From positions 17,247,565-17,311,564 of the forward strand of contig NC_049993.1 in the NCBI RefSeq assembly GCF_000003815.2: a stretch of 64,000 bases of DNA. The letters are read 5' to 3'. The notes below the pieces were generated by a model that saw nothing but the letters and a program-made list of their open reading frames with translations, had not been told where the DNA came from and searched no databases. Within the stretch, counting starts at the first letter, position 1, and every line of letters begins with the position of its first letter. This document shows, one piece after another, positions 489 through 33,049 of this stretch. This DNA is from Branchiostoma floridae. Lineage: Eukaryota > Chordata > Leptocardii > Amphioxiformes > Branchiostomatidae. The position numbers were made by a program, and so were the translations under genes.

Positions 489-3400
489 GTGTACCTTCCG
501 TTGCCTTCAATATGGTATCCGTAGCATTTGCCATGAGGGATGTAGTCATGATTAGCATTAATTATCCTTCTAAGAAAGAAAGGATGCAAATGTATGGAAT
601 TACTGTAGATAGGCCAGAGTAGAAACTTTAAGACAATTTTACATTATACAACAGGAAAGAGATATTTGCAAAGAAAGGGACACCAGCATTTGACCTGAAA
701 ACAATGCAAATCAGAGAGAAGGGGATGCATGAGGGTTGATGATGAGTTACTTTTTCTTTACTACTTGTGAACTATTGGTTCAGGCCTTTGCAGTAAAAGC
801 TCTTAGGAGGGACGTGCTGTAGTCCTTAATGTCAGATTTCTATTATCTACCTCATGTGCAAAAATGTAATAATTATTGTATTGTTTGAAATCCTAGGATT
901 TGCTGGACAGTTTTTGCGTCACCAGGAAAGCTACTATGCCACAGTGATCGCGTATAATGCAGTGGGAGGGAAAACATCAGCCTACTCAGAGGCGATCGTT
1001 GTTGATGACACCCCACCTGTTCCTGGGACTGTGGTGGAGCTGGACAGTATCTACCATGCTGACTTAGAGGGGGATGATGCAGATGGTAGAGGAAAGTGTG
1101 ACAATGAAGAAGGTAATTTTACTATGCAATTACATGTACCTAATATTAGAATGCTAAATTATCATAATTCAATCATGAATGTTTGATCAAGATTTTTATT
1201 GTAGAGATTCTTTCTTAAATATTGCTGCTTTATCAATAGACCAATTGATTGATTGACTGATTTACTTATTGATTGATTGATTGGTTGGTTAGTAAGGTAT
1301 CACTAGCTTCTTTTCAGAAAATGATATTAGCTGGAAATCCAAGCAGCCAGATTCTGCATATTGAAAAAAACTACATCCTGTATACAACAGGGGAGCTAAT
1401 ACCTGTATCCCTAAAATTAATGAGGAATTACACAAACTGTGAATACTGCCCATTGCAAAGACATAATTATAGAGATGTTTTCTGATTGTTTCAGACTGCC
1501 AGGAGATGGATGCCAGGTGTCAGGCTTCTGTCAGTCAAGTCACTGTTGCCTGGCAACCATTCATGGACCCAGAGACACCGATCATCAGGTGGAAATTTCT
1601 TTTTATATCAACAATCATTCATTTAAAATTAACAATATGATTGTGCAATGCACTGTACACAGCCACTGTACAGTGTACTTTGTGTACAAATGTAAGTACT
1701 AGCATGTCAAAAATAGGCTGGCCCTAATAGCCACAGGCTGCGCCCTGGTTGTGCATGCTGAACAGCCAAACCAATAAATAAATGAATAAATGTCAAACAT
1801 TGCAGACAAAATTTCAATTGAAGATGCCATGGGTGATACAGGTAATTTGGATAGGATGATCCAGACCAAGTCAAAGACACTCATATTCACACACTTTCAT
1901 GTATTTAATGCAAAAAATGGCTGATCTATTTCAGGTACGAAGTAGCTGTAGGAACTGTGCCAGGAGCAGCAGACCTGCACAGCTTCCACCAGGTTCCCCA
2001 TCCTGACACTCGCTTCTTTGTCGTTAAGAACCTGGATCTGTCCGACATCAGACAGGTAATTGTGATGTTTTTGCACTCTTTGTGATACCCCTCTTCAAAG
2101 CACTATATAGGCAGTAAAACAGAAAATGTCACTGTTATAATGCCTCAACCTACATGTAAATGAAAGCTCTTTTTTCCATGATAATCTAACCTTGAAGACA
2201 CTGCAATGTCTTGAAAGGAAATATTATTTGATGACCAGTGACATTAACTTGAAATTAATACAATGACATCTCAGTGTCCCAATATGATATCTCTCTAATC
2301 TATCTATATCTGTCTGTCTCTTTCTGTCTGTCTGTCTCTCTCTCTCTCTACGTCAATCTGTCTCTCTTTCTCCCTCCCCTTTCTTTCTTGGAGTCCCTCT
2401 TTCTGTCTGTCTCTCACTCACTAGCAAAGTATGATATATGTCACGCTATCCATCTTTCATCTTTCATCTTTACTGTTCTCTCTGTCTCTAACTCACTAGC
2501 AAACTTTAAGTATAATATAGAAGAAGAACTTTATTGTACGACAATTGTACATGGTACAAAGTATGGCAACAGCTATTACTGAAAACATAAAGTACAAAAT
2601 AGAGGTAGATATAAGATATAAGAACTTTATTTTGGTTTTCGCAGTTTCAAACAAAAAACTGAAATTTTAAACCAAATTACATAGTTGGCTAATGTTAGCC
2701 CTGGAGTGTCATTCTAAAAGTATCATCCTAAGGATTCATTTTAAAATAAAGTTTCATATGATACAAGTCAGCAAAGTTTCATATGATACAGGTCAGCGTT
2801 TACAGAGAAACAAAGTTACTTGTCACTGAAATGAAAGTCTATACAGTCTTGTTGTACAGAGCTGTTGCCTTGTATAAAAATGACTTTCTAAGTCTTTCAG
2901 TGCGACAGGTCGGTAGTGTGAGCTCGTTACAGTTCCTCAGTGTACGTCCCGTCCGCTGTTGCCGGTTTCCTGTAACCATGTAGTGTAGTGGATGGTCACT
3001 GGCGCGCATCTGGTTGAGAAGTGTCACTGCTGCGTCTTCGCGCCTGGACTGGAGAGTTGGCAGGAGGGTAGTCGTGCAGGAGGCATCACTGTTTCTGTGG
3101 ATGATCTTCATGGCTCTTTTCTGTACGGCCTCGAGGGTGTTTGACTGTGAGATGGTACACCCAACGTACACAACGTTTGCATATTCCAGTACCGGTCTGA
3201 TGAGGGTTGTGTACACTGTTGTTAAATCCTCAGCAGGCATACCACCTTTGGCAAGAAGACGGAGGAAGTGCAAGCGTTGAGAGCCCTTTCTCGTCACGTG
3301 GGATATGTGGCTGTCATACTTGAGGTTGGAGCTAATCTTGAAACCGAGGTAAGGTGCACATGTAACGACTGCTACCTCCTTTCCTCCCAGAGTAAGTGGA

Positions 3401-6400
3401 GGGAGGTCAGGTGGTATTCTGGCGAAACATATCCTGAGCTCGTACGATTTGTCGCCATTCATGGTCATGTTGTTTTGTGTTGCCCATGAGTCCAGGTGGG
3501 TAGCTTCTTCCTGCATAGTGGTGTCGGATTCAGCAGTGATACAGGGGATGCATCGAGACAGTCCAATGTCATCAGCATAACCGATGTTGGTGGTCGTTTC
3601 GTGTTTGACAGTTGAGAAGACATATACACCAGGAATAGGTAAGGTGACAAGACTCCCCCCTGGGGTACACCGGAAGTGACGTCATGCCAGCTGCTGAATT
3701 CCCCGTTAGCGGCGACACGCTGTTTCCTGCCAGACAGATAACTGTTGATCCAAGTCAACATTTGAACAGGGATACCGCGTGTAGCAAGGTGCTGTAGAAG
3801 AATCCCATGGTCTACTTTGTCAAACGCCTTTGACATATCTGCAAGTAACACGCGCACCACTGATGTCTGTTTGTTGTCAAGACTAGTGAACCAGGACTGG
3901 TATGCCTTCAGCAGTGCAGCGGTGGTTGACGACTTGGGCATATATGCAAACTGATCCTTGATCCAAGGTTTCATTATGGGGAACAGTTTGTTTAGCACGA
4001 GACGTTCCTGCACCTTTCCCAGTGTAGAGATCAGAGAGATCGGCCGCCAGTCTTTCTTGCACGAAGGGTGTGTTGTTTTAGGTACAGGGCAGATGTTGGC
4101 TATTTTCCACGCAGACGGCATGATGCCCGTGTTGTAGGACGTGTTCATCAGATGACAGATGACCGGACTAAGATCCTCACAGAACTGGCTTAGAACCCAG
4201 TTTGGTACACCATCGGGACCACAGGCTTGTCTTGGGTTTAGATTTTTTAGTAATGTCTTTACTTGGCCTATGCTGCAGAGATCGTAGGTGTCATCAGTTG
4301 GTGGGAGTGGGAACAGAGCAAAAGTGTTGCTGTCTGACATTGCCTCCCCGAAGAAGTTGTTAAGGTGATCTGCTACTTGTTTCTCTGGGATGTTGGTGAG
4401 AGTGACCTTTCGTTTTGATCTCTGAGTGCGGCCTAGTTCGTTGTTTACAAAGTTCCACCAGTCCCGGGGATTTTGCTTTTTCAGCAATCCTATGCATCTG
4501 TTGTAGTAACATCGTTTTTGCTTCCTGATAAGAGTCTGTACAAGGTTCCGGAGTTTCTTCCAGCGCTCTGTTTTGCCATACTTCAGGTAGGCTGTTTGTC
4601 TTTTTTGGAGTGCCGATTTGATTGTGTCGGTCATCCAGTACTTGTCGACGTTTCTAGTCTTCTTCCTCCTGAAAGGTATGCAGGTGTCGAGCATGGTTTG
4701 AATGATGTCGTAAAAGGTGGTAACCTTGTCCTCCACTGTGCTTGCGTTGTACACACTGGACCAGTCCGTGATCGCCATGCACAGCCCTAGAGCGTCCTTT
4801 CTCTCCTGTGTTACCAGGCGGTGCATGGTTCTGGAGGGCTCGCAGTGGTTTTGATGGATTTGGGGTTTCCAAATCACACAGTTGTGATCACTTGCTCCGA
4901 GGGGAGCTATGGTAGTCGGTGTCTGATATTGGTTGTGAACATTTGTAATGATTAGATCCAGCACACTGTCGGCGCGGGTGGTCATTGACACTACCTGTTT
5001 CAACTCGGGGTGACTGGTCAGCAGGGGATTCAGTGGAAGCTTGTTGAAATCGCCGCACAGTATGATACCTGCGTGTGGATGTTTTCGGCGGATTTCATCC
5101 AAGGAGTTGATCAGGTATTGATTAGTTGTGGTTTGCAGGTGAGGCTCGTTAGCCCATGGAGGATGATAAAGTGCTCCCAAAAAGAGTCTCGGGATGGCTC
5201 TTGGAGTCCAATGTGGTTCGAGCTGTATCCACATACATTCGATGTCATCCGGTGTCGAGATGTTGACGGGAGTTGCCTTTATACTTGTTTTGATGTAGAC
5301 AGCGACTCCTCCGCCCCTTCTGGTTTCCCGATCCTTGCGATAGAGACAGTAACCGTCGATGATGGTCGATTCCTCTGGTATGTTGGAAGAAAACCAGGTA
5401 TAGGCTTAACATCCTAGTTGACATAACAATAAGGGCTAACATAATTCATTTATATAGTATCATAATGAAGTAGGCTAAATCATCAGCTTCAGTATTCTGT
5501 CTAATCGCAAAGCAGTCCTTGATATATTTGCCTATTTTTGCATTATATGTATGCATCTTCTATTGTTTACCACTGCAGGTGTTTGTGACAGTGAGAGGAC
5601 ACAACGCTGCAGGCCTGTCCAGTGTGGCTGTGTCTAACGGAGTCTACATCAGTAAGATCAGTGCCGGGTTACCTCCCCTCACACCGCTCATTGTCAACGA
5701 TGGGGATCACAATGGCGACATGTAAGATGTTCTTTGCTCAGCATATGGTCCAACAGAGCGGTGTGTCTATTTGCATATTGATAGCTGTTCAATACACTAC
5801 CAAAAGTGCTTTTTCTTGTTTGTCTTGTTTTGCTTCCTCACAGAAAATTTATCTTCCAGGAAGAAAAAAATTCTTGTATTTCTTAAGAGTTGAATCCGGT
5901 TAGAAAAAAACAAGAATTTCTAGAATTTTTTTCTTGCATTATAAGAAAAAATAAGAAGATTTTGCTTAACTGTCTAGAAAAATTTTTGTAGTTTCTCGTT
6001 TTGCTTGAATTTTATTCTACATTTTCTTCATACAAGAATATTTGTCTTCATACAAGAATTGTCCATGGGGCAAGCAAAATAAGAAAAAAATCATTTTTGG
6101 TAGTGTAGACCTACCACATGTGGTGGAACTTTGTCAGGTAAAATGATGGACTCGCCTCTGCAAGTTGTGCAAAGATGAACAAAGCTTCAGTTACATCATA
6201 CATGGATGATACTCTGATGCCATTACGATACAGTTTGCCACACCTCATCGTGAAAGGTATCCAACCATACATGATCTTCAAGTCGATGGAAGTTCAACTA
6301 CTGTTAATTTATCATACTTTGGACCCCATCTTCAAGAAAGTAAAGGATTATGAACTTTAACAAATTACAGTGTGAGCTAATCGAAGAGAGTCGTCTGAGT

Positions 6401-9400: not shown

Positions 9401-12400
9401 CTTGTTGGCGGGTAAATTTTATAGTTTCAGCCAACCAGCATGGTAAATATGACATCATTTGTAAAAACCTTATGGAGCAAATTTTCTCATCCTGATCTTT
9501 CCTAGCTATTCATTTTTGCAATTTTGCCACTTTCCAGCAAAACTTCGACGAAGATTGGTATGCTGGAGTCTTTGAAATCAGATGTAAACGCTTGTTATTG
9601 ATGTTAAGATGGGTCTGCCCATCCATTAATTTTCAATCTTTTCATGTTTGCAATTTTGCCACTTTCCAGCAAAACTTTGATGAAGACGGATACGCCGGAG
9701 TCAGTGAGGAGCACGCCCACCTGTTTGACATCTACCCCCTCACCAAAGTGGGCAGGAACACCATGGTTCAGTACCAGGGTCTGGAGCTCCAGCATGGACA
9801 CACCTATCACGTCGTTGTCGTGGCAACGGATGAGGCTGCGCAGTGCGCCATGGCCCTGGCTGACGTCACCATTGATACCAGCCCTCCGGTGGAAGGACAT
9901 GTGTTTGTAGGAGCACCAGGAGATATGGTAAATTATGAAGCAGAGCAATAGACGATAACGAATGCCAAAGCTTTTGATAGTCATTTTGCTACGCCTACAG
10001 CTTTGATAAGTCAGTTAGTTGAGCTTGCCTATAAGACACTTGTTTCTGACTTAGAAAAAAGAGATGCTGCTACAGTGAGCATTAGGTCAATGCCCAGAAT
10101 TGGTCTCTGTGGCCTTGCACAAAGCAAACTTGTCAAAGAAGTGCTGTGAGTCAGTACATTGTTTTTTAGTACCTTTAAATGATGCGTCTCTTATAAATTA
10201 AGTTGAGTTGGTTGATTAACCTTAACTTTCTCCTTAATTTGTAATCTCAGTAAGAAAAATACTTAAGTGACAGATGCCCTTTTTTCACCAGAACGTCATG
10301 TACGCAGCCATGACAGACCGGATGGAAGTATTTTGGGAGGGTTACCATGACAACACAAGCGGCATCGCCCAGTTTGAGGTCTCCCTGCTGTCGGGGGGTG
10401 ACTGCCAATCACGCGGCAATGAGCAACGCACCGTTAAAGTCGACTTTGTGCCTGTCTCCGCCAACGAGTCTTCATACATGTTTGTTGACATTGATCTGAA
10501 GGTAGCTACAGTCTTTATTACTTTTTGTATGGCGTAGATTATGAGAATTATTGTTTTGTTTACCTCTTTTTAGACTCATTTTGCCTTTTATGTTGAAGTA
10601 ACTGATGAATCCGAATGAATAGATGCAGATAAAAAAAAGCCAGTTTTTATGAAATCGGTGATTGTAATCTGTGATACATTGGATAGAGCTATCATCACAT
10701 TTTGTACTTTTGTAAATGATAATTAAAATGAATTTAAATGGTTATTGAGCACCAAGGAGCCAAAGGACTTGTCTTGTGTGAACTAATGTTGCTTTACACA
10801 GAAAATCGCATGCAGGCTTTACCCTTTTCCCCATTCCAGCCTGACACGCCATACTACGTGACCTTCCGGGCCATCAACCGAGCTGACCTGGTGACGGAGT
10901 CCACCACCCCTTCCATCCTGCTGGACCTGCGCGACCCTGTGGCTGGTGACGTCATGGACGGGGTCAACTTCCAAACCGACGCCACGCACCAGAGCTCCTT
11001 GTCGGAAATGAAAGGTCATAAAGTTAAATCATTGACTGTCCCCAAAACATATTACATTTCTATATCATTCTGTGTCTGTACAGTCGGTGTAACAGATCTT
11101 TACCACATTTGTCTGAAATGACCATTTAAAATGGTATTACAATATATTAGTGTGTTCTAGATTAGTCAGAACTCCTTACATTCAATTAGTACAGCCTCTG
11201 GGTGTTAAAGACTTCCTTCCAATCCAGCCACATGTAAAAGACGCGTGAGGCTGCGTCTTCTTGATGAAGGTTTAAGCATCTGCTGAATATAAGAAGAGTC
11301 TATCTTATGTTTGAAATAAAGCTCCTTGATGAATCAGTGACCAATTATTGACCAATTTTGTTTTTTTTTGTTTTACAGGTGTGATTATACACCATCCTAA
11401 CCCTGTTGGTGACCCCTGCCCCAAGACGAGCTATCCTATGGACGAAATGCACGACAGCTGGTCTGCGTTACAGACGACTGGACTGTGGGGAGTGTCGGGG
11501 GAGAGACGGATTCTGTTTCACCCAGAGCAGGTATGCCATTAACTCAAAGTGTTTCAAATGTCATGATTCAATTTTTAAATTTCTTCAGCCCGGTAACCAA
11601 CTGCCCGTTAACCAACCACCTGAGAACCAACCACCTGTTAACCAACCACCTGATAACCAACCACCTGATAACCAACCACCTGTTAACCAACTGCCCGTTA
11701 ACCAACCACCTGAGAACCAACCACCTGATAACCAACCACCTGTTAACCAACCATTTTAACCAACCACCTGTCATACCAAAGACTTTAAAAATGGTACAAG
11801 CTGCTTTCTCTTTGATTAGCACTGAGCACTAATGAGGAAGAGTATGGGAGTTAAACACACATCACTATACCAGCCGGCCCCTGCTGTAGTTGCTTCCACA
11901 AATGTGTGGCCCAGGGGCTACAAAAATGGAGATGGGCTGCTCATATGTATGGGCAACTTTTAACTTTATGTTTTGACAGTTTTTGTGTCTTGTCAGCTAT
12001 CTTTTGATGAAGATGAGGGCTTGTCTGTCCGCCTGACCCGTGATATTGAGTACGAGAGGATGATGTCAGGAGCCTACTCTACAGAAGTGGACGGCAGCAC
12101 AACAGGGCAGTACGAGGTGAGGAAACTGTAGCACAAACACTTACAACAAGAGATTAATGTCTTATCTTATGCAGTATAGCGGGAAATCTTTATTTTTTTT
12201 TTTTTTATCTATGCTGTGTCCACACCTCATCATTAACAGCTGTGCTGACATTTTACAATACATCACGCTGGCGAGTTTCGGTGAGGTGGGCATTAACTTT
12301 CCATTTGAAGTTCCTCAAGTCTCTGATAGTTACAATGTCTTGTGGGAGGCAGTTCCATAACTTAACTGTGGCTGGGAGAAAAGTTCTTTTGTGCCAGGAG

Positions 12401-15400
12401 GAGGTTGACTTGACAGGTTCTAGGGCTGCACTGTGTTGGGATGTTGACAGACGTGTTTCTCGGCGGTGTACGTAGGACTCGGGTAGAAGGTTGTTCAGTA
12501 GTGTTGGTGCGTCTTGGTGATACATTCTGTGTAGAAGTGAGAGGGCCCCAACATTTCTCCGCTGTTCTAGAGGCTGGATCTGGACACTGTCCAATGCGTC
12601 TTGAGGTAAGTTGATTAACTTTGTTGCTCTTCTTTGAATGGCATCTAGCGAGCTAAGGGATGTTGCACATGCACCCATCCACACAGTAGAGGCGTACTCC
12701 ATCGAGGATCGAACCATGCTCTTGTAGATAGTAGCTCTCTGTTTAGGACTTAGGTATGGGGAGACTCTTCTTAGCAGGCCAAGTCGTCTTCCAGCATCAG
12801 TTGACATTTTGTCTATGTGGTGTGACCAGGTCAGATTTCTCCTTATTGTAAGTCCCAGCAGGTCTGCTTCTTCCACCTCGGTGAGGATTGTATCCATAAA
12901 GGTGAGATCAGGGTGGTTTTCTTTGACATCCTTCAAGTTACTCACTATCATGCTTTTGCATTTTGTTGCCCCAAAGAGAACATTCCAGTCTTTTGCCCAA
13001 TTCTGGATCCCCATGAGGTCTGTGTTGAGTGATTGGGCGGCAAGGGTTCTTTCTTGTCTGTTCCTTATGATGTTCATAAGAGACGTGTCGTCAGCATATA
13101 GCATGGCAGTGTTTCTTATCTTTTCGGTGATGTCGTCTATGAAGATGAGGAACAGGAGAGGTCCTAGGATGGAGCCTTGGGGAACTCCAGCGTTGATGAC
13201 TTTGGAGGTGGACGTTTTCCCACTGATTACTACTTTTAGCTCTCTATTTGACAGGTAGTCCTCAATCCATTTTAGTAAGCTTCCTTTGACACCGATGGCG
13301 CTTAGTTTAGCGATGAGCCCCCTATGCCACACTCGGTCAAAAGCCCTGCTTATATCCAGGCAGATCAATCTGCTCTCTTGCCGTCTGTCCTTGGTGTCAT
13401 GTAAAAGTTGGCTTACAAAGGTCAGCGCATCTGTTGTCGAGTGACCTGCCCTAAATCCAAATTGGTTGTTGCTTATGAGTCTGTACTTACTGATGTGTGT
13501 CCATAGAGCTTTGTTTATGAGAGCTTCCATTACCTTGCTGATTATGCTCAGCAGGGATATAGGTCTATAGTTGTTTGGATCTTGTTTGTTGTTCTTTTTG
13601 TGGACTGGAATAACATTAGCGATTTTCCATTGTTTTGGCATGTGGTGATTGTCTATCAGAAGCTGGAAGAGTCTGGCTAGAGGCCCGGCTAGCTCAGGTG
13701 CAGCTTGTTTCAGAACTCTGGCGGGTATGGAGTCTGGACCAGTAGCCTTGTTGGTGTCTAGCGTAGACAACTCTTCGCGCACTTGATCCGGGCAGAAGGT
13801 TACTTTCTCTAGAGTGGATGTAGTTCTGGTCGTTGCCAGAGGGACTTCTTTCTCATTTTCTTCTTGTGTTATGGTGGATTTGTCGGCAAATATGCTAGCA
13901 AAGCACTCAGCTTTTTCCTCAGGATGTATGTAAGTTTGGTTGCCAGAAGTCAGTAAGGGAATATCACATTTTCCACCTTGCCCCATCAGCCTCTTTGCCG
14001 TCCACCACCAGCTTTTGCTTCCATTTTTAAGTCCTGTGGTCATTTTTGCCTTGACCCTCTTTTTGTGGGCTTTTCTTGCTTTTCTGGTGGCATAGGTGTA
14101 GTCATTTCTGGCCTTGTTGTATCTGGTTCGTGTCTCTTGGGTTTCGTTAGCTTTGTACTGGTGCCAAGATTTTATTTTCTTCTGTAGGGCTCTCTCACAC
14201 GCGCCATTGTACCACTCAGGTTTTCCATCAAAGGTCTTGAGTTCTCTTCTCGGGATGTGGTGTTTCATGGCCTCTTGGATAACATTTGTTACGTTTGTAC
14301 ATGAGCGTGCACATTTGTACATGAGACATCTGCTTGTGTCTATGGCAGCTCTATACGAGGTTAGAAGTCAAACACTTTCTTCTCATCAAAACAGTAACGT
14401 TCTGATCACAGAGAATAGATGTACATGTACCTAATCTTTGGACCAACCATTTGAATCCCGGCTGTTGTTGCTCACCCAACTGGATGGAACTTTAAGCCAT
14501 GGTCCACCGTGCATTATACCTGTCGAATAGAACTAGTAGCGCTGTACATAGCATCTTTCTTCTCTAACAAAAAACAAAGGAAGAGTAGCTCAATTTTTCA
14601 TTAAGCAAGATGAGCAAGATCACTTTCACACAATATAACAGGGAATCGAGAGGCATCTGTATACATTGATTCCTTTGGTATGCTTATTTTGAGTTGTATG
14701 TAAAGGACATGTACTAGCTTTGTCAAAAGTGGAGATCAAAACATTGCTCATATCTGTAGTATTGCAGAGTCTTACTCATTAGAAAAACAATTACTGTGAA
14801 ATTTCCGGATTTCTTGTCTCATGATGCTACTGATAATTTCTGCAGATGGACATCATCGCTGCCAGTGGCGAGCTTCAGGCGGTCACCAGTGTTGTGTTCT
14901 GGGATGGACTGGAAGGCGTGGTCGGAGATCACATCGAAATGAGCCTTGAACAAGAAGAAGAACTTTTCCCCGGCAGCAACGAAAACTGCAGCTGTTGCCA
15001 GATAGGAGACACTGCTAACATTACAGCTGCTAATGTTACAGGTGGATATACAATCATGATAATGTTACAGACTAGAAGACTACGTTTGATACAAATCTTC
15101 AACAAAGGGTGTTCCTCTTATACTTTTGTCCATGCTTATAGATACAATGTATATGTCTAAGATGGACATTGAAATGACTGCAATTGCAAATATTCCTACC
15201 TGTCTAAGTGCCAAAGCTGCCCCTTGCTTCTCTACGTGTGGTTTCTCCATTTACTAATTAATAAATATACAAACTTAAGTTACCCTGGATGAAGTAATCA
15301 GATCATTTAGCTGTCACATTTTCTAAATATACAATTCTCCTTTCTTGCAGGCAACTGTAACTGCACCTGCACCAGCCCCAGCCCCACAAGTGAACCTCAA

Positions 15401-18400
15401 ACCAATACTGAAGAGCCGGCGAGCGCGACTGAGTCCCCACCAGAATGGACCATCGAGGAGGAGGATGCAGAAGGAGGAACCTCCGGGACGGAACCCAACT
15501 CAAACAGCTTTCCGTACGCTTCCTGTGGACTACAGATTCATTCAGGTAGCATACAATCTTCTGAACTAAATATCGTAGGTTGTGTCAAATTATGACATTT
15601 ACAATGTAATCACCTGGTGAGTGAAGGCCAACGCATTACTTTACTTATCCTCTTCATCTCATGTGGGACCATTCTCCTACGCAGAGAGACCACAGTCGTG
15701 TCGAAACTCCTTGTGTTCACCTCTGCTATCATGTGCACTCAGATGAGTTACTAACAGCCCTTCTTATGAATATTATGAGCTTACCCTTATATGGGCAATC
15801 AGCTGTTGGGGATCGGGCGTAGGAGGATGGAGCTATGTAAGCCGTAACATGATTGGCTGATAGCTTCCTACCGTCCTTTGCGAGACAACTTTCGAAAACA
15901 AAAAGCCCAAGAAAAGCCTATTCTCTGATTGGTTGAGAGCTGGTTTGTGGCGACAATCATAGTAATCGCTGGTAGGCATCTAGATAGCAGGGCCCCAATA
16001 GGCTAGTGCTATTGGGGACCGGGCGTAGGAGGATGATGTGGGACATAAGGCTGTGATAAGTTTCCTCCACTGGGGGCTCAGACTGTTCTATGCTAGGGGC
16101 TGAGCAGCATTCCAGGGGATCCCAATGGCCGCTGGGTCTTTAGCTTACTAACACTAACAGTGCGTCTCCATGTAGTTTTAGGACATCCCCTAACTATAGA
16201 ACATGTCATAAAACCTTCTATGGTGAAAATCACTCAAAACATTTGGCAATTCTAAACATTCAAATCCATGGTTGTCTACTATTTTTCAGAAACTTCTGAC
16301 AGCCCCAGCTACGCCGGGCTGTGGTGTCGGTTTGCGAACGGGACAGAATCAGAACAGGGAGAAACTGTGAAGTTGGACTTCGACCCGTCAGCTGCCTGGC
16401 ACAAGTACACCTTACAGTTCATGGAGGAGAAGATCTTTGCTACCAAGGTTGGTCAACAGTTTTCTGAGAGCATGTAAACATAAAACATACACACAGACAC
16501 TCGCACATGCATGCGCGTGCACACTCACACACACACGTACACAATTCGTGAAGTTCTTAGCTGTTTCCACTAATTAGAAAGAATGGGGTTCTGGGAATTC
16601 CAGGTAAGATTAAGAGCTAGGCATTATATGAATGCCTCGTAAGATCTAAGTGGCTTGCAACTAATCAATCAGCAGCTTTGAGCTGACTGCTTCTGTGCAA
16701 TCAGGACTAAAGGCGTCACTGTCATTTGCCTTTAGCTAACAAAAGTTTTTATCTTTTGCATACCCCCAGGTGGACAGATCCGTACGGTTGTACATTGACG
16801 GCCAGTTTAAGGCGGTCCTGACCGGAATCCCCACCCTGAGCCAACAGGCAAAGTTGATTCTCAGCGCCTGGAACAAGCACGACAGGATTCCTGAGTTGGT
16901 GGACCCGTTTGAACCACCAACGACAACTGCCTATTTCCGTTCTGTCAGGTATATATCATTACGTTCCTGATACATTGACATGTAATACGAACAAAGGGAA
17001 GGTTTTTCACTGGCACATTTTCAGAATACCAGAGTTTAAACGGTGCCAAAAGTGACCAATCTTGTATTATTATTAAATTATTGGCTTTACTTCGATGTAG
17101 GTTAGACATCCAGGTAATAAGATACAACAAAAAGTAGCTACTCAAGCAACTGGATATATGGTTTTGGAAACGGTCAGACGTTTCGGATAGAATTCACTAT
17201 CTTTTGTCAGTGACACTGAAGTGATCTGGAAGAAACAGGTCCTTTATACTCTATACTCATCGAACCTTGATCTGTTCCCAGTCTCCCGCCTGACTCCACC
17301 AGCCTGTGTTTGCACGGCCAGCCATTCAGGAATGGTGACCACGCTGTGGTGAGGTTCGAGGCCGGGGTTGGTTCCGCTAAACTGCTGGATGACGTTGCGC
17401 CATTCAGAGAGGTAAATTAAATGCATTCCTGCTTTTTAGAATAACATTGAATAAAAACTACAACACATTTGTGATCGTCTTACAGTTGGCTTGTATATGA
17501 ACTAAGAGGTTTTCAAACTATACAATATCGTATTGAGGTCACCAGTGTGGCGCTGAATGGCTGCTCGCTCCAGACCCTTGCGATTTAGCCCCGCCTATTG
17601 TAAGCTCCTCGCAATTCAGCCCCTGGCTGCAAAGAGTAAGTAGTCTGCCCACCCAATAACAAATAACAAAATATCAGTTTCCATGGGTACAATTCGTTAC
17701 ACACTAATAGGGCGATATCTTAATACTGGATACTACTACTTTTACTACTACTAAGTACTAAGTAAGCAGTATAATCTTTCTTTAAGTTAGTAGTAGTAAT
17801 ATGTAAATTTTAAAGCTAATTGGTATGAAAGTGTGACTTTTAAAACTGCTTTTGCATTTTGTGCAATGTATACTAATTACAGTATTTTTACAGACTTTTA
17901 TTAAACTCTCAAATGTTGTCTCGTTTCCACGTAGGTTGCTAAACCATGTATCCCGTATTCAAGTCACTAGAGAAAGACATTCCAATGACATTGAAGAAGA
18001 GTGATGGATGTCACTCGGATGTAATCTTCGCAACGCAACCATTGATTTGTCTTTGAGAATTGTTTACCGGGATGTCTAATCTTAATAAGTGTACTGCAAA
18101 GCACATTCGTGATCTCCTTACAGGAATTCCCACGTCAACCAAGAGAGGTTTCAAAGCAATGAACTCTGACATCTTGGCGTCGATTGGTATCAACAGTTGA
18201 GTGGTAATGCTGTAATGCAACATGCTTTGTGTTGTTCGTTAGCGTTATCACATTGTGTAACGCCAAGCTTGGGTGTCTCCCCACCAGGTTGCTAAGCCAT
18301 GTATCCCGTGCTCAGCACGATGTGATGTGCTCGGCTGTGATCCTGACTGTGACGCAGACGAGACGTACGTACATCAGGTCCTCCTCACGGGACTGGACCT

Positions 18401-21400
18401 GTCTCCTGTGTTGTCTGTACAAGACTCCAACACATCTATATCAACTGTACAAGACTCAAACACTTCCGTACAGGCTGTGTACTACCTCACCGTCAGAGCT
18501 GTTGCAGGTAACTTTGGTCCAATGATGCTATGTTTTTATCAAGCATTCCAGCCTTAACAGTGCAGCCTTGATACTTCAAATATTAAGTAAATGCTTAAAA
18601 CTTCACCTGTTAACAATGTCCGTTCATTAGCTATGTTAATGAAAAGTACAATTATATTAATCATAATCTGAAAACTCTTTTGGGAGAGCAAACCTACCTG
18701 TGTTCAGTGTTATGTCCAGCTGGTACACAGTTGCCATTTAAAGGATGGTATAATAGGACATTTCTTCAGACATTTTGCTATCGACAAGAGAATGCTAAAA
18801 ACAAGATACACAAAGATGAAAACCTGTACGTTTTGCATGTTTATTGAACAAATGCCAGTTTAGGAGCTATGTTAGTGACAAGTAACTTAGTAACTTACCT
18901 GGAAAGTGGAAACTCCTTTGGCAGATCCATTATGTCAAGCTGGCGCATTGCAAAACCACACAGTTGCCATTGAAAACATCACATAATACAATAGGACGGT
19001 GCACATATGTCCATACATTTTGCTATCAACAACAAATTCTCACCAAAAGAAAACAGGAAAAAGAACTATAGAAGCTGTCTTACCCCCGTGATATTTCTGT
19101 GATCACCAGGCTCTGGCAGAGCGGCCATTGCGTCGTCCAACGGGATCTACATAGACGAGACGTCACCGGTCATAGAGAACCTTTCAGCAGCCGTGCAGTT
19201 GTCATTTAAAAGATCACATTATATGTCGACAGATTGCAGATATGTTGACAGTCTCCTATCGACCAAAGATTCTAACTAAAAACAAGAAAAAAATATAGAA
19301 ACTGTACCTTACCCTCTGATATTTCTTTCTGTGATCTCCAGGCTCTGGCAGAGCGGCCATCGCGTCGTCCAACGGGATCTACGTAGACGTGACGTCACCG
19401 GTCATAGAGAACCTGTTCCACGTGGATCTGTCCTGGTCACGTGACGAGCCCACCCGCTACCAGGGGGACAACAGCTCCATCGCTGTGTACTGGGAGGGCT
19501 ACGACAAGGAAAGCGAGGTAAGATCAAATGTACACCTTACCGTACCATATCATACTTAACAAGTCTTCATGAAACCACACCATACCACACCATACCATAC
19601 CACGTGGATCTGTCCTGGTCACGTGACGAGCCCACCCGCTACCAGGGGGACAACAGCTCCATCGCTGTGTACTGGGAGGGGTACGACAAGGAGAGCGAGG
19701 TAAGATAACATTTGTACCTTACCGTACTTAACAAGTCTTCATGAAACCACACCACACCATGCCAATATTACCACGTGGATCTGTCCTGGTCACGTGACGA
19801 GCCCACCCGCTACCAGGGGGACAACAGCTCCATCGCTGTGTACTGGGAGGGCTACGACAAGGAGAGTGAGGTAAGATCAAATGTATACATTACATTACCA
19901 TATCGTACTATACTGGTCTACATGCATGTGCATGAAACCACACCATATACCATATATCGCATACCATACTGTACCAGGGGGACAACAGCTCCATCGCTGT
20001 GTACTGGGAGGGGTACGACAAGGAGAGTGAGGTAAGGTCAAATTTCATACCTTACCATGCAATATGATACTATACTAGTCTACATGAAAGCACACCATAC
20101 CATACTATGGCTATACTATATCATACTTACTAAAGGCAAACTAGCTACCAGGGGGACAACAGCTCCATCGCTGTTTACTGGGAGGGGTATGACAAGGGAA
20201 GCGAGGTAAGATAACATTTGTACCTTACCGTACCATATCATACTTAACAAGTCTTCATGAAACCAGTGCCATACCATACTATACCATACCACGTGGATCT
20301 GTCCTGGTCACGTGACGAGTCCACCCGCTACCAGGGGGACAACAGCTCCATCGCTGTGTACTGGGAAGGATACCACAAGGAGAGCGAGGTACAGTACAGT
20401 GTACAATATTCATCGCTAGAAATCCCTCCAATGATTATAAAAGACCATTTTCATCACATGCACCCTTGTATTAAGTAGATTAGTCTTATAGAACTGTTAT
20501 GTATCAGTAGATGCCATGCTTTGTACCTTGTGCAATTGTTGTGCAATTTATTTTATCATAAATATTTGTACCTTATTGTACCATATCTGGCCTATACCAT
20601 ACCGTCCTAGTGATGAAAGAAATTTGCCAGTTTGGCACACTTAGTCTAGGTATAACTTATAATTTTTACTCTGCCAAATGGTGGCATTGGTGGCAAATGG
20701 GTACTACCCTGGGTGTTAGGCCCAGAAACCAGAGATCTTTGGTTGTAATCTCCTGGCATGTGCCGTTTTACCCTTGAGAAAGGTACTTTACAAGATTATC
20801 CTCACTTCACCTGGGTGTAGAACTGAGTATCTGACTTTGGTTGTTCCAACAAGGTATTGATTATGTCATACATTTTTCTTGACAACCTGGCGTCAGGCAG
20901 TGAATTTGTTTTATGGGATTTCTTTTTATTACAAGGGAGCAAACTTTCTTAGAACTTTCCATTTGTGTTCTATCAGGTGTCAAACACTCCATTATATTCA
21001 GATATCAATAAAGATGTATTTTGTATTACAATTCTCACAGGTAGTGGAGTGCCAATGGGCAGTTGGAACAAGCCCTGGAGAAACGGACATCCAAAACTTC
21101 ACATCGGTTGGTCCGGATCAAAACTTAGTCTACAGCGACAAGTTAGAGGGAAAACTCAGCAACAAGCAGACGTATTACGTCACTGTGAGACTGGTCAACG
21201 GTGCTGGTCTGGTCAGCGAGAAAACTACAAGTGGTCAGTATTGGTTGTCAATTACTGTACGTTAGGTTTGGTTTTTTACAGTGGTGTGTCATAAGTTTCG
21301 AAAACCTTGTGTCATACTCAGTCTGATAGTAGCAAACTAGTTTTCACATTCATTATGTTTGAAAGGTAATTTTATTAGGTCATTTATCTATATATAAACA

Positions 21401-24605: not shown

Positions 24606-27600
24606 TTGGAAGATGTTCAGCACCAACACCAAGGATAGGCGTCTTTGCACTTTTGATGTTGTGTAGTACAAAGGATGTGTTCACACCTGCTCTGATAATG
24701 CCATGAAATAGAAAGATCTGATTAATTTTTAAATGTTTGTTGAACAGAGTTCGAAAAGCATACGGCCAGTCGTTCTTCCTGGCGTCCATTGGAGGTGACG
24801 AGGTCGATGCCCCGTTAACAGTCACTGCGCATTTCAATGACTCAGCACTTCTGAGAGATGAGTTGCCAAGAGTGGTGTTCTGGGAACCAGGTAAATATGT
24901 CTTCTGAATAGAGTGAGATCCTTTAAAGAGTTCTGCAAATTTCGAAATATGCAAACTGCACATGCACAAGACAACTGTCATTCAAGATACGTCGATGTAG
25001 GTTAGACATCCAGGTAATAAGATACACCAAAAGTATTTACTCAAGCAACTGGATATGGTTTTGGAAACGGTCAGACGTTTCGGATAGAATCCACTATCCT
25101 TCGTCAGTGACACTGAAGTGATCTGGAAGAAACAGGTCTTTTATACTCTAACTATGAATGAAGATGTCCATTAGGAAACGTTGTTAGACAATTCAGACAG
25201 AAGACAATTTGGATTCCAAAGAAGACTCCAGTTGCTTGGGTACATACTTTTTGGTGTAACTGTCATTCAAGCAACTGGATATGATTTTGGAAACAGGCAC
25301 ATGTTTTAGGAAGCATCCACTATCTTTTGTCAGGGACACTGAGCAAGGTCTGTTGATATACAGATTTTACATATCCAGTTGCTTGAGTTACTGTGATCTT
25401 AAGTATCTTATTACTAGAATGTATAACCTTCACTTTATGCAAAATGTAATCTTTGCTGAAAGTAAAGCTGTGGTAGGAGACTTCAAAAATGTCATGCTTT
25501 GTGTAGGTAACCAGTTCATAAGTCTACAATATAATGATTATCCCATATTTTGTTTCTCAAAAGAATCAACTCCTAAAATTGGTTAATGCCATTTTCACGT
25601 AACGTCTTTACTCATTCACATCTTCCTTGTACTGCATGTAATATACTGCTGTAAGGAATTGAATTCATGGTCAATTTACCCTTACCATTGCACACAGAGT
25701 CTGAAATGTGGAAGGACGTCCATGGCACCTGCACAGACAGTACCGAAGCTGTAGATTACAACTGGGATGACGGAACGTTCACTGTCGAGGTAAGCAATGT
25801 GTGGCAGTATTGAGAATCTTCAGTACTGTTTGTTGAATACTAGAAATAAGAATACGTAGTAACCTACTGCATGAAATCGTGCTTGGCGGATGACGGCCAT
25901 GGCCATCGAGTTGTGAAGAATGAAGTGGAGGAGATACATGTATGCAACAAGGGTGATTGATTAGATACTAGAAGTGAAAAAACTTTCTGCCAACTAAGCT
26001 AACACTGTATATCATAAATCATAAATGATAAAGAATATGGCTTTCTCCTCCGTCATTTGGTTTATAGGACTTTCAAATTATTTCGTACAGATTGTTACGG
26101 TTCCCTGAAACGACAACATAGCCCCTTTTTTCTCGGCTTAAAGTCTAAGAAAGCATGTCTACATTTATGAGAGTTACTGAATTTCTCTCCCCTCAGCTCT
26201 GCTCCACCACAGCAATACGCACCCACCTCAGCCGCCGCAGTGAGCAGCGTTACTTCTCGGGCACGTCACAGTTCGCTGTCGTCATTATTAACGGAACCTT
26301 CCAGAACAAACCACCCTTATCATTGTGAAACATGAGATTAACCGAAATTATCTCTCTCCCCCTCAGCTTTGCTGGACCACAGCGGCACGCACCCACCGCA
26401 GCCGCCGCAGTGAGCAGCGATACTTCTCGGGCACGGCACAGTTCGCTGTCGTCATCATTAACGGAACCTTCCAGAACAGGCCGCCTGTGCTGCTGTCTCC
26501 ACTGCGCATGTCCATGGGCGAGGATGAGGGAACTCTGACTGCTCAACTCGTCGCTAAAGACCCGGAAGATGATGACTTGGTCTTCCGGTTGGCTGAGTTA
26601 CAGGTACTCTTTCATTATCATTGTGTTTGTCTTTTATTCTATTTTATCTTTTCTGGTTTTGAATGAAGACTTTGTTTTCTGGCTGACTGGACATCTGGTA
26701 TGTATATTATGATTCATTTTGAAATTCTAATTTTCTTTCATAAATTTTAACAAGGTTATTTTTCTGTCCATGTTCCTGTATGTGCGTGTGTGTGTGTTTG
26801 TGTGTGTGTGTCAAATGATAACTTGACAAGGCCAACATGGATGGCTTTATATTGGATATATGAGTAATTCTTGATGATACCTCGACATTTCATTTTACTT
26901 TGTTCTGTTTTGTCTAGATGTAGTCCATTTTATCAATATACTTGCAACAGTGGAATACTATTTCCTGATGCCTTCTGTTTGTTGTTTGCCTGCTGTTTGT
27001 TGCATGAAGGGTCGACAGAAGTCGGCATGGTTACATCTAATTGGCTATTCAACAAAGTAGCATGTATATACATTAGATACTTCTCATATGGTGTATATGA
27101 TTCTCATTATGACTCAAAATGTTCCCACTTACTCTATCTCAGCGGGACTCTGGCGATCTGGTTGAATTAGATGAACAAGGCACGCTGCGGTACAAACCAG
27201 CCCTGGACTTCTCAGGCTCCAGAGAGATCCCTATAACCATCTCTGAGTCACGTGCGGATGGCAATCCTCTACTCTCCACCACCCTGACGATCGTCATAGA
27301 TGTCGGAGACGAAAACGACACTCCGCAGCCGTTTGTGGTCCATGAGGGAGAAGAGAAGCTGCAGGGAGCAGGAATCCTCCACCTGACGGTGGAAGAAAAC
27401 CATCCTGAAAACGTTGACTTCGAGGTGCTGAGGTTCGTTGCGGGTTCCTTCGACGTTGATGCTTACGATGCGCTGACGTTGCACATCAAGGCACCCTCCA
27501 ATGGAACTATTGCAGTCGGGAAACATGTGAAGGAAATTGCATTCAAAGAACCAAACTGTTCGATGTCTGTGGATGCAAAGAGAAGTGAGTGGGCGGACGT

Positions 27601-30600
27601 CTTTAACAAGTCTTGGGCTGGTCCTGCCATCCCCTACCCATGTGAGATAGTACTCCCACACGCACCGGATCTACTGAACTGGGCCGTTGCCGCTGTGACC
27701 TACACTCCAGACCAACACTTCTTCGGAGAGGATACGGTGAAGTTCTACGCTGCAGATGCGTACGGGGCGATGTCCAAGCTCGTAACTGTTGTCATCCATG
27801 TTCTGGAAAACCCTTGTCTGAACGGAGGAAGGTGCGTCGGACCTGAAAGCGATCCTGAATGCCAACACCAGTCGCGCAGTGACGGTTTCCATGACTACAC
27901 CTGCAACTGTACGGTGGGGTTCGAGGGGAGGCACTGTGAGATCAACCCTAATGACTGCATGCTCGACCCGTGTCCAAAGAACTACACCTGCATCGACCAG
28001 GTAATAGATTAGAAGACAAACAGCATTTTGTAGTAGAATGAAGATTATACAACAAAGAGAGAGCTGAAGTTTAAAGACTGATGTTTCCCTAGTTCATACA
28101 CCTAAGTATCACAGATAAATTCATATTCCTAATGAATTTAGACAAACCTTAGATTGTAAAACATATCTGTTCCTACAACTTCAGTATCACAGTGAGAAGA
28201 AGTCAAATTCACTTAGTAGAATATGATTCTTGTGTTGCAATTGGTTGACATTGTATATATTCCATGTATCTGGCAACTATTCTTTTGTTGTAACCTGTAC
28301 TTAACCCTGTGGGTATATATATATATATATATATGTACAATAAAGGTCTTCATTCATTTATCGACCAGGTGAACGGTTACGTGTGCCACTGTGAGCCTGG
28401 CTGGCCCTGTAATGGCCTGACGCTAGGAGAGATCGTGGGGATCACTGTCGGCTGTCTGGTTGCTCTGATCATCCTCATCGTCATCTTCAAGCTGTGGATG
28501 AAGAGACGGGCAGAGGCACGTAAAGTCTTGGACAGCCCGTAAGTACATTGTACAAGTTTTTTTCCATTAATTATCCTGTATAAAAGTATATCTATTTTGG
28601 CTATGGGTATAAATTTCCTCAGCACAGCGCTACCAAAGTGGGTTGAATCATGTGAAGACAATTAGTAGACATTTGATGGTGACGTGACTGTCATAGTGTT
28701 GCTCTCTACCTTGTACGTTGGTCCCTTAAACCTCTTTCTACATATTGGTCATGTACTATACTACTATATGGCCTGACCTTCAGTCAATATTGACCATAGT
28801 CGAATCCTAATTGACATCAGCCCTACAGCGTCAACTGTGGCTAAACAGTCCTATACGAGAATTACATAGGGCATGTAGGCGTAGGGAATCTGAATCCATT
28901 ACTGGAGCTCTTCTAGTATCATGTGTTTTGTACCATGTACATGTATATTTATTTGGACTTTAAATGATGTGCTCTATATTGTTGTTATAGTTCATATGAC
29001 CCTTACCTTCTATCTCATGACCTCAATGAAAAGCGGCCTGCAGGTCGAGTGGAACTTCTCATGAATAAAGATTCAAACAAACAAGCAAACCCTTGATGCA
29101 AACTGTTTTAACTTAAAGATAGGCTTTGATAATTTGTGACAATCCAAGGTTGCTTCAACTGATGTATTATAACTAAAGGTATTATCTATTGAGGCAAACA
29201 TCCCACTTTTAGTGCATCAATGTTCTTTTGAATTTCAGGGCAGGAAGCAATGTTAATCTTCAGGGTCCCCTAGCACTGCCTCCGGGAGCATTCCTGAACC
29301 CGGCGTACGAGAGGATGAACTTCAACAACGTGAGGAATGTCTGGAATGAGGTGGAGGAGGTGCAGTTTCGTCACGTGGTGAGCATGACATGTGTAATGTA
29401 GCGTGCGTAGTCCAGTGGTTAGCGGTCCTGCCTCTGGTACTAGAGGTCGTGAGTTTGATTCCAGCTGTGTTGCTCACCTGACATGCACGCTACCGGAAAG
29501 GGTTACAGTCCTTAGGACAGGAGGTTAAATCGTGGTCCACTATTCATTGTCTCAGCCATCGAGAGATTGTGTAAACACAGGCTAGTGTATGTCCTGATGC
29601 AATTTCTTTGTACATAGGCCAATATATCTCTAACGCTCTTCTGAAAGAAAAACGCATTATTTCTGACACAAACATCATTAATGTTAACTTTGCGACTAAA
29701 AGGACAACATGGGTGGAATTCAGGCCAGCAGAGAGGGTGAAATTCTTTGAAATTAGTTATGTGACCATTGATATTATTCTCTGAATTTAATTCTTGCATT
29801 CCAGGAACAGGAATGAGAACGTGGTGAGCATGTGTTATTTCTACCTACCTGCCTTATCCTCTTCGCTCCCTTTGGTGGAGCATAAGGCACTGACAAACTT
29901 CCTGCAGTCCTTCCTATCTTGGGCCATCCATTTGATCTCATGCCACTGACCTGTCTTACGTACTGCCTTCATCTCCCCTTCTACAGTTCTTCTCCAGGTC
30001 CCTAGAGGCCTGCCTCTGTTTCGCTTCCATTGAGGAGTCCATTTGAGGGCGACATAAGGGTGTCTGTTTTTATGCATACGCAGAATGTGTCCCAACTATT
30101 TCCAGCGTCTGCGTCTTATCTCATCTACAATGTTGGGTATACCGTGCGCGCTCAGAAACTTCTTTGTTGGAGACTCTCTGCGCCCATCGTATATATCATA
30201 CATGTGTCATTTCTAGCCTGACTAGAATTGCGCTCCTAGCAGCCGGCCCCACAGTTCTCATTAACCCCAGCCAGCGAGAGATTGTGTAAACACAGGCTAG
30301 TGTATGTCCCGATGCAATTTTCCTATAACTACATACATATTAGGCCAATATATCTCTAACGCTCTTCTGAAACAAAAATGCATTATTTCTGGCACAAATA
30401 TTATTAATGCTATATAACTTTGCTACAAAAAGCACATTTACACATGACTGGAATGCAAGCTAGCAGAGAGGGTGAAAGTCTTAAGTTATGTGACCATTAA
30501 TATTATTCTCTAAATTCTTGTGTTTCAGGAACTCAAGGAGGCAGCACCGAATGCGAATTCAAAGAAGTTGGAGCCACAACCTCAACTGCTGCTCCCTCAA

Positions 30601-31375: not shown

Positions 31376-31698
31376 TTACTCTTGCTTTGGTGTGTCTGCA
31401 CAAGCTTATGTGTGTCAACGACTTTTACTTAAGACTGCTATACAGTGTTTTATCCTGGGCTATCAGTATATATTCTTTAAGACATGCTGATATCCTGTAA
31501 CTTTTATGACATTACAGTGGATTGTTTTTTTTTGGGAACCTGTTACAAAATAAGTTAATGTGCTTTATATATGGAGCTGGGAATCAATCGTCCGCATTTC
31601 CGCAACACAGTAGCACGCACAAAGTTTTCTTTTTTAAGAGATCTTATCCAGGCACAAATACTCGTAGTTGAGGAGAAGCATGTCTCAAAAGCACTTAC

Positions 31699-32168
31699 CG
31701 CCGCCCCAAAGTCCAACCGCCGCCCCAAAGTCCAACCGCCGCCCCAAAGTCCAACCGCCGCCCCAAAGTCCAACCGCCGCCCCAAAGTCCAACCGCCGCC
31801 CCAAAGTCCAACCGCCGCCCCAAAGTCCAACCGCCGCCCCAAAGTCCAACCGCCGCCCCAAAGTCCAACCGCCGCCCCAAAGTCCAACCGCCGCCCCAAA
31901 GTCCAACCGCCGCCCCAAAGTCCAACCGCCGCCCCAAAGTCCAACCGCCGCCCCAAAGTCCAACCGCCGCCCCAAAGTCCAACCGCCGCCCCAAAGTCCA
32001 ACCGCCGCCCCAAAGTCCAACCGCCGCCCCAAAGTCCAACCGCCGCCCCAAAGTCCAACCGCCGCCCCAAAGTCCAACCGCCGCCCCAAAGTCCAACCGC
32101 CGCCCCAAAGTCCAACCGCCGCCCCAAAGTCCAACCGCCGCCCCAAAGTCCAACCGCCGCCCCAAAGT
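31699..32168. repeat. 19-bp satellite array, about 25 near-perfect units
   Basis: Unit CCGCCGCCCCAAAGTCCAA repeats without visible variation for about 470 bp. With a 19-bp period every frame is open on both strands, producing spurious ORFs of up to 206 codons. It lies about 320 bp beyond the receptor polyadenylation signal. Confidence 0.97.
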
Positions 32169-33049
32169 CGCAGGAATGGGATCCTAGCTAGCAAACCTAC
32201 CCACCCACCCTTTTAATTCCAAACAGAGAAAGTGCTTCCTTGCTTTTACATGCTTTTTGTGGCACAATTCATGATAGAAGAAACTTATTATTGATTTAGA
32301 CCATTCATTTAAGCCAGTTTATTTTTAAAAAATAACAAAATTTTGTTTGCCTTTCAAACATATGATAAATTTTGACAACAGTCAGTCCTCTTGATTGTAA
32401 GCTTTCAATGAAGCAATCTCACATAAATTATTCTAATCCTCAAAGAGGCTTCTATCAGGATGAAATGGTACTGCAGGAAACTGCATATGTATGGCTGAAT
32501 TTGCCTTGAAAAGTAAAAGTGGTATCCAAATCCACGTGCAGCCCATGTCCTTCCAATATGTTCTACTATGGAATTCTAAAAGCACACATCTAAAAATCTC
32601 ACCTTTATGAATATAAGTCCATAAAAACTAACCTTGAGAGGATAACCCTTCTCCTTAATGGTCCAACAGTCCATTTCATACTGCTCTCAGTGACCTTTGA
32701 CTCAAAAATCAACCTAATTACACAACTTGGACCTACTTCCCCAAGTGGTCTCCCATCGCTTTCCAGACAGAAGTTTTCTTGACAGAACCAGTTAAAGACC
32801 CAATATGGAAAACATTTTGTAAAATTATAGATTAAAGATAAGAAATTCCAGGGCAAGCTCCTTGGGGACCAATGCTAACTTTGACCTTCATTCTTCCCAA
32901 AACCTATCCACATTAGTCTATAATCACAATCAATACAAAGGTCTGAAGTTTCACTGACTACAAATATCCAGAAACACAAATAGACACACCCCTCTTGGTG
33001 AATGGCATTATAACCGCACTCAAACTAAGGGAATAGTCGGATACGGTAA

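Follow-up and report, generated by a model that had tools for sequence, protein, structure and literature searches.

A GH16-like module without a conserved catalytic triad in a probable receptor-like protein family of Branchiostoma floridae

A stretch of 64,000 nucleotides from the amphioxus Branchiostoma floridae (assembly GCF_000003815.2, contig NC_049993.1, positions 17,247,565 to 17,311,564 of the forward strand), here called the window, contains a gene in which seven exons at 11379-17411 on the plus strand encode a module resembling glycoside hydrolase family 16 (GH16) beta-glucanases. Judged from its sequence, this module is very probably derived from GH16 and catalytically dead. A first-pass annotation of the same DNA had proposed a GH16-like module with its catalytic acids lost or displaced, embedded in a membrane protein. 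The present analysis adds three points: the module is one of a family encoded at ten loci and kept by purifying selection, its likeness is to the lichenase type of GH16, and it carries a large Cys-rich insert. The complete proposal, a dead GH16-derived module that binds glycans as part of a single-pass, receptor-like protein, is one that we hold with a shade under even confidence.

A family-level resemblance to GH16

All seven exons are bordered by canonical AG/GT sites, and spliced together they form a single frame of 377 amino acids; this confirms the exon set first proposed. A spliced-alignment script gives identical borders; its first pass used the window's own protein as a guide and later passes those of the paralogs. 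The strings quoted as GH16 signatures follow each other in the order SGAYST, GQYE, FWDG, FDPSAAWHKYTLQF, LYIDGQF and KLILSAWN. Exon 1 (11379..11530, residues 1-51) includes W37, which is aligned to the lichenase cleft residue Tyr24 and is also where the hhalign match to GH16 starts. In exon 2 (11997..12116, residues 52-91), which belongs to the N-terminal GH16-like half, lie the strands SGAYST and GQYE; these take part in the HMM and PDB alignments described below. The strands DIIAASG and VVFWDG lie in exon 3 (14846..15041, residues 92-156), followed by GVVGD and the start of the insert, with DHIEMSLE at 14927-14950; exon 4 (15351..15545, residues 157-221) holds the remaining insert and then SCGLQIHS (15521-15544). 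Exon 5 (16290..16447, residues 222-274) has the strands YAGLWCRFANG and ETVKLDFDPSAAWHKYTLQF, and exon 6 (16770..16948, residues 275-333) has VRLYIDGQ and KLILSAWN. The GH16-like core ends with exon 6 (the hhalign match runs to residue 336), so that exon 7 (17282..17411, residues 334-377) is nearly all outside it and runs into the following region.

A profile of nine modules matched 11 distinct PDB sequences at E ≤ 10, with 3.7e-4 as the best whole-sequence E, and all 11 are lichenase-type GH16 glucanases. The three best alignments each show two stretches that are colinear in both proteins. Comparison of the ten paralogs with 31 bacterial GH16s by hhalign gave 96.3% (E 1.6e-9, for one comparison) over 190 columns, residues 37-336, as against 4.3% for 18 laminin-G domains, 0.1% for the reversed profile and 0.5% for the best of 60 column shuffles. 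The N-terminal half alone reaches 90.9% and the C-terminal half 94.8%; an earlier run against eight GH16s had given 86.5% over 80 columns of the C-terminal half. A hidden Markov model (HMM) of 31 bacterial GH16s scored the window module at 21.1 bits and all ten modules at 12.6-21.1, while the best of 5000 residue shuffles reached 8.5 bits and reversed sequences at most 3.8. By this measure, the quoted GH16 strings exceed chance.

Single sequences gave less. The N-terminal half alone has no Pfam match, phmmer of the window module against PDB returned nothing at E ≤ 10, NCBIfam BglS gave E 0.042 where its cut-off is 300 bits, and PF00722 found no match in the B. floridae genome read exon by exon. 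Other results weigh against the assignment. Pfam, whose GH16 family the first-pass annotation had named for a check, lists GH16 (PF00722) for the window module, but at E 0.021 and 14.8 bits for the single sequence, below the cut-off of 22; the C-terminal half alone has E 0.0033, every form tried falls below the cut-off, and at E ≤ 1 a PF00722 match was obtained for only two of the nine paralogs. As for the PDB matches, all eleven represent a single enzyme type, in the form of close relatives, permuted versions or fusions, and the two aligned stretches are weak when taken singly (i-Evalues 0.43 and 12 in the best chain). Significant GH16 similarity over the predicted jelly roll is a feature of the family profile. 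At that level the GH16-like assignment is borne out by the PDB profile search, the HMM and hhalign; the contrary outcomes named at first, no GH16 or concanavalin-like match or a pair of FN3 domains, did not appear in the profile searches, Pfam listing no FN3 within the module.

The family was defined by a search of the assembly (431 contigs, 513,431,437 bases) with the module. Of the 51 matches at E ≤ 1, we count 50 as falling within the window or one of nine further loci; the remaining one, at C17:4.875 Mb, is separate and short (E 0.35, residues 335-375). With the diverged paralog at C19:14.22 Mb as query, no additional locus was found in the genome at E ≤ 0.001. Exons were modelled at all nine paralog loci, the model of L049 (C6) being poor in the insert. 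The ratio of nonsynonymous to synonymous substitution (dN/dS) was calculated for a core of residues 1-118 and 206-377, which thus includes ends outside the GH16-like part. In six close pairs, formed by the window with L041 and L042 and by L043, L044 and L045 among themselves, it lies at 0.08-0.20; between L046 and L047 it is 0.19, at a dS of 1.66; two distant pairs have no core ratio because dS is saturated. This shows that the module is maintained under purifying selection. The insert has a dN/dS of 0.17-0.53 in the six close pairs, and three pairs gave no insert ratio.

Within GH16, the module resembles the lichenase type, which has an ExDxE motif and no bulge, rather than the bulge or laminarinase type with ExDxxE; discrimination is weak at such a distance. 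By hhalign, the family scores 96.9% with 28 no-bulge sequences and 0.3% with 17 bulge-type ones, although the two sets match each other at 99.6%. After trimming, the bulge set gave 1.0%, and after realignment 0.9%, and an untidy bulge alignment is therefore not the reason for the low score. Subsets behaved alike: six proteobacterial no-bulge sequences alone gave 93.8%, and a range of 93.7-94.6% was obtained for five sets of 17 randomly drawn Bacilli sequences, whereas four plasmid bulge-type sequences gave 1.2%. The 30 GH16 domains fetched comprised 15 of bulge type, 11 without bulge and four of neither kind, which were dropped. The bulge set consists of 13 of the 15 and the four plasmid sequences, and the no-bulge set includes two plasmid sequences with an altered motif.

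The active-site strand, the cleft and the insert

Three stretches are candidates for the active-site strand: DHIEMSLE (residues 119-126), a stretch at about 188-198 picked out by hhalign, and SCGLQIHS (214-221). We consider SCGLQIHS the likelier counterpart of the GH16 catalytic strand, although the profile tests disagree. Over nine rows, its mean BLOSUM score is 3.73, compared with 0.29 for DHIEMSLE and 0.5 for residues 141-213, which include the 188-198 stretch; the other scored core strands range from 2.9 to 4.8. By eye, the segment from LWCRFANG to ETVKLDFD aligns without gaps to the strands that follow the lichenase catalytic strand, and this spacing favours the SCGLQIHS register. Residues 119-205, which hold DHIEMSLE, have no GH16 similarity in hhalign (0.0%). 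When 140 starts were scanned with the catalytic columns left out, residue 207 came top, followed by 189 and then YASCGLQIHS (212), scores being close to zero, and the DHIEMSLE register was absent from the ten best starts shown. With the catalytic columns, YASCGLQIHS came second, and a start at 124, overlapping the end of DHIEMSLE, came fifth. hhalign itself put the catalytic columns at the third place, on residues 190/192/194 within the 188-198 stretch. An HMM excision test speaks against the SCGLQIHS preference: with arbitrary cut lengths, and with L049 left out as uncuttable, the DHIEMSLE register scored higher in six of nine paralogs and SCGLQIHS in three. DHIEMSLE is probably not the catalytic strand and opens a variable, Cys-rich insert. 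The earlier placement of this string at the catalytic position is thus not upheld by its conservation or by hhalign, despite the excision test.

The insert comprises residues 113-213 (14909..15520, plus strand, split by the intron between exons 3 and 4) and has six Cys and four N-glycosylation sequons; it is variable save for the GVVGD at its start. In the window, 102 residues separate FWDG from CGLQIH. Nine of the ten models have an insert of 91-115 residues with five to seven Cys, while that of L049 has 49 residues and one Cys. If the SCGLQIHS register is right, the insert occupies the loop before the catalytic strand, a loop that is placed at the -1 subsite of lichenases (PMC6827312). In L041 (C15:17.01 Mb), the paralog closest to the window, there is a small internal duplication at the insert start (DHDEMGLHDEMGLEEEE), together with one more copy of the exon 3/exon 4 segments beside it (region ~3290-3953 of the reverse complement).

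The aromatics listed for the lichenase cleft are Tyr24, Phe92, Tyr94, Trp103 and Trp192, of which Tyr24 and Tyr94 are described as important (PMC6827312). Only these two positions are mostly aromatic in the family, Tyr94 in all ten paralogs and Tyr24 in eight, and the set as a whole is not conserved. The position of Trp184, which we take to belong to the lichenase cleft as well, is kept as Trp in eight of the ten. Glycan binding by the module is plausible. A GH16-derived beta-glucanase fold that had lost its catalytic triad would then form part of the extracellular region of a receptor-like protein, and its jelly-roll cleft, with some of the lichenase aromatics kept, would bind a beta-glycan without cutting it. 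Candidate ligands are glucans of microbes or algae and glycans of the host itself. The cleft may be capped or tuned by the insert, which is rich in Cys and probably N-glycosylated, and binding could be relayed through a stalk of FN3, cadherin and EGF domains to a tail with an NPxY-type motif, resulting in uptake or the binding of an adaptor.

A role as a spacer is nearly as likely. The module would again be GH16-derived and dead, but it would bind no sugar and would act, within an adhesion protein, as a structural spacer or as a surface for contacts between proteins; a sizeable minority of our confidence lies here. The Phe92 position is occupied by V, L or T, that of Trp103 by S, G, A or D in the register that prefers SCGLQIHS, and Trp192 has no counterpart by eye. 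In addition, the insert of about 100 residues adjoins the cleft and could block it. These observations all tell against a binding cleft. On the other side are the persistence of aromatics at Tyr94 and Tyr24 and the catalytic columns, which have not kept their acids.

Probable loss of the catalytic triad

The part of the first-pass annotation that held the catalytic acids to be lost is supported. A catalytic ExDx(x)E on the active-site strand is conserved across the ten paralogs in none of the three registers, so the predicted loss of the triad holds whichever of them is right. In the SCGLQIHS register, the nucleophile column is Gly in all ten, and an acid at either of the other two columns is seen only in L049, where the model is poor. 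The DHIEMSLE register places H, L, F or S at the nucleophile, and the 188-198 register has Glu there in one of the ten.

That the module is an active enzyme whose acids have moved elsewhere, for example to EMSLE at residues 122-126 or EEDAE at 193-197, is improbable. Some observations favour it over a dead module: reading DHIEMSLE two residues later yields EMxLE (ExxxE), which the window shares with its two closest paralogs; EEDAE is an ExDxE string and lies where hhalign placed the catalytic columns; and the excision test leaned towards the DHIEMSLE register. However, EMxLE has no middle Asp and is missing in the other seven paralogs, and columns 193/195/197 vary among paralogs. An ExDx(x)E string occurs somewhere in four of the ten modules, but shuffling the window module 2000 times also produced one in 643 cases, and both EMSLE and EEDAE fall within the variable insert that lacks GH16 similarity.

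Even less probable is another concanavalin-like fold of the laminin-G type, with the GH16 resemblance reduced to a general superfamily likeness: WHKYTLQF and LYIDGQ also recall laminin-G motifs, and the C-terminal half scores 11.2% against laminin-G (bacterial GH16 itself scores 64.7% against the same set), but the whole module reaches 4.3% over 32 columns with laminin-G and 96.3% over 190 with GH16, the N-terminal half 0.3% with laminin-G and 90.9% with GH16, and Pfam lists no laminin-G family for the module. Laminin-G identity was rejected on the hhalign result, for which a clean domain could be taken from 21 of the 25 loci fetched; 18 were left once near-duplicates had been removed.

The host protein and its relation to known systems

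The dead, GH16-derived module probably belongs to the ectodomain of a receptor-like protein with one membrane span; the surrounding exons are provisional and the membrane helix was assigned by eye. Directly upstream is an FN3 domain encoded by two exons with provisional borders (10271..11030, plus strand; Pfam fn3 E 1.5e-5, 25.5 bits, cut-off 25), and further FN3-like repeats are seen by eye in other provisional exons. A cadherin-like and EGF-like part of the same gene follows at 26292..28009 (plus strand; Big_9 E 2.8e-13, Cadherin_5 E 1e-7, hEGF E 5e-7). These Pfam matches were scored on exon pieces joined by eye. By eye as well, a probable transmembrane helix (IVGITVGCLVALIILIVIF, then KLWMKRR) is located at 28432..28488, and NPAY, an NPxY-type motif, at 29297..29308 in the probable cytoplasmic tail, both on the plus strand; the probable last exon is an open frame that follows an acceptor-like site and ends at a stop near 30.7 kb.

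In six of the nine paralog loci, the cadherin-like/EGF part is found on the same strand, about 4-10 kb downstream of the module, and a seventh (C19:13.98 Mb) has an EGF stretch alone, some 11 kb downstream. Near C19:14.22 Mb and C6:20.10 Mb, no such part was detected at E ≤ 1e-5. Conversely, the part occurs without a detected module at C4:23.19 Mb and C18:8.26 Mb, and EGF-only matches are present elsewhere in the genome. Pfam, the paralogs and the helix together support the earlier view of a module within a membrane protein that has FN3, cadherin-like and EGF domains. A literature search at the level of titles and the beginnings of abstracts met no account of this architecture, which may still be in print.

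The window also contains repeats and mobile elements. The intron between module exons 2 and 3 holds a frame of 704 amino acids on the minus strand (12256-14367; Pfam RVT_1 E 4.4e-40), by inference a retroelement insertion of the type without long terminal repeats. A second retroelement lies upstream, with a frame of 646 amino acids (3468-5405, minus strand; endonuclease/exonuclease/phosphatase E 1.5e-8, reverse transcriptase E 1.2e-22). At 19418-19909, Tandem Repeats Finder reports 2.8 copies of period 171, made of the exon-like segment VDLSWSRDEPTRYQGDNSSIAVYWEGYDKESEV and its flanks; similar frames recur to ~20.4 kb, and the whole is possibly an array of recent exon duplications. A minisatellite at 31668-32213 has several frames open on both strands, with APKSNRRPKVQPPPQSPT-like repeats.

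Among known GH16 enzymes, the GH16_21 lichenases (e.g., PDB 1GBG and 1U0A) are the best profile match to the module, colinear with it over most of the fold and sharing the ExDxE type. Unlike them, the module family has no conserved catalytic triad, and the module carries the ~100-residue Cys-rich insert and lies in a membrane protein. Bacteria and a few early-diverging fungi are named under GH16_21, and Metazoa under GH16_3 and GH16_4 (PMC6827312). Non-catalytic GH16 binding proteins are known, and about 9% of 1,900 GH16_4 members lack one or both catalytic residues (PMC6827312). The animal GH16_4 proteins of the GNBP/beta-GRP line resemble the proposed module in being animal GH16 domains that bind but do not cut (PMC6827312). 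However, GH16_4 is described as derived from GH16_3, the laminarinase subfamily (PMC6827312), whereas the module scores only 0.3-1.0% with the 17 bulge-type sequences, all of them bacterial. This weakly suggests a GH16 line other than that of the GNBPs. A bolder and rather doubtful scenario is the capture of a lichenase-type GH16 domain by a chordate lineage, in which the domain then lost its catalytic residues, gained a Cys-rich lid and multiplied into a ten-locus receptor family, a class of membrane beta-glycan sensors separate from the GNBP line.

If the proposal is true, a dead lichenase-type fold underlies a family of membrane proteins in an invertebrate chordate. The module would be a concrete candidate for glycan sensing, perhaps a sugar sensor and not an enzyme, and the ten paralogs would form a series in which the path from enzyme fold to receptor module can be traced. 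The GNBPs themselves are secreted or lipid-anchored and have an N-terminal glucan-binding domain. A likeness of another kind is offered by the Klotho proteins, which are glycosidase-fold pseudoenzymes in the ectodomain of single-pass membrane proteins; they differ from the module in having a GH1 fold, unrelated to GH16, and act as FGF co-receptors.

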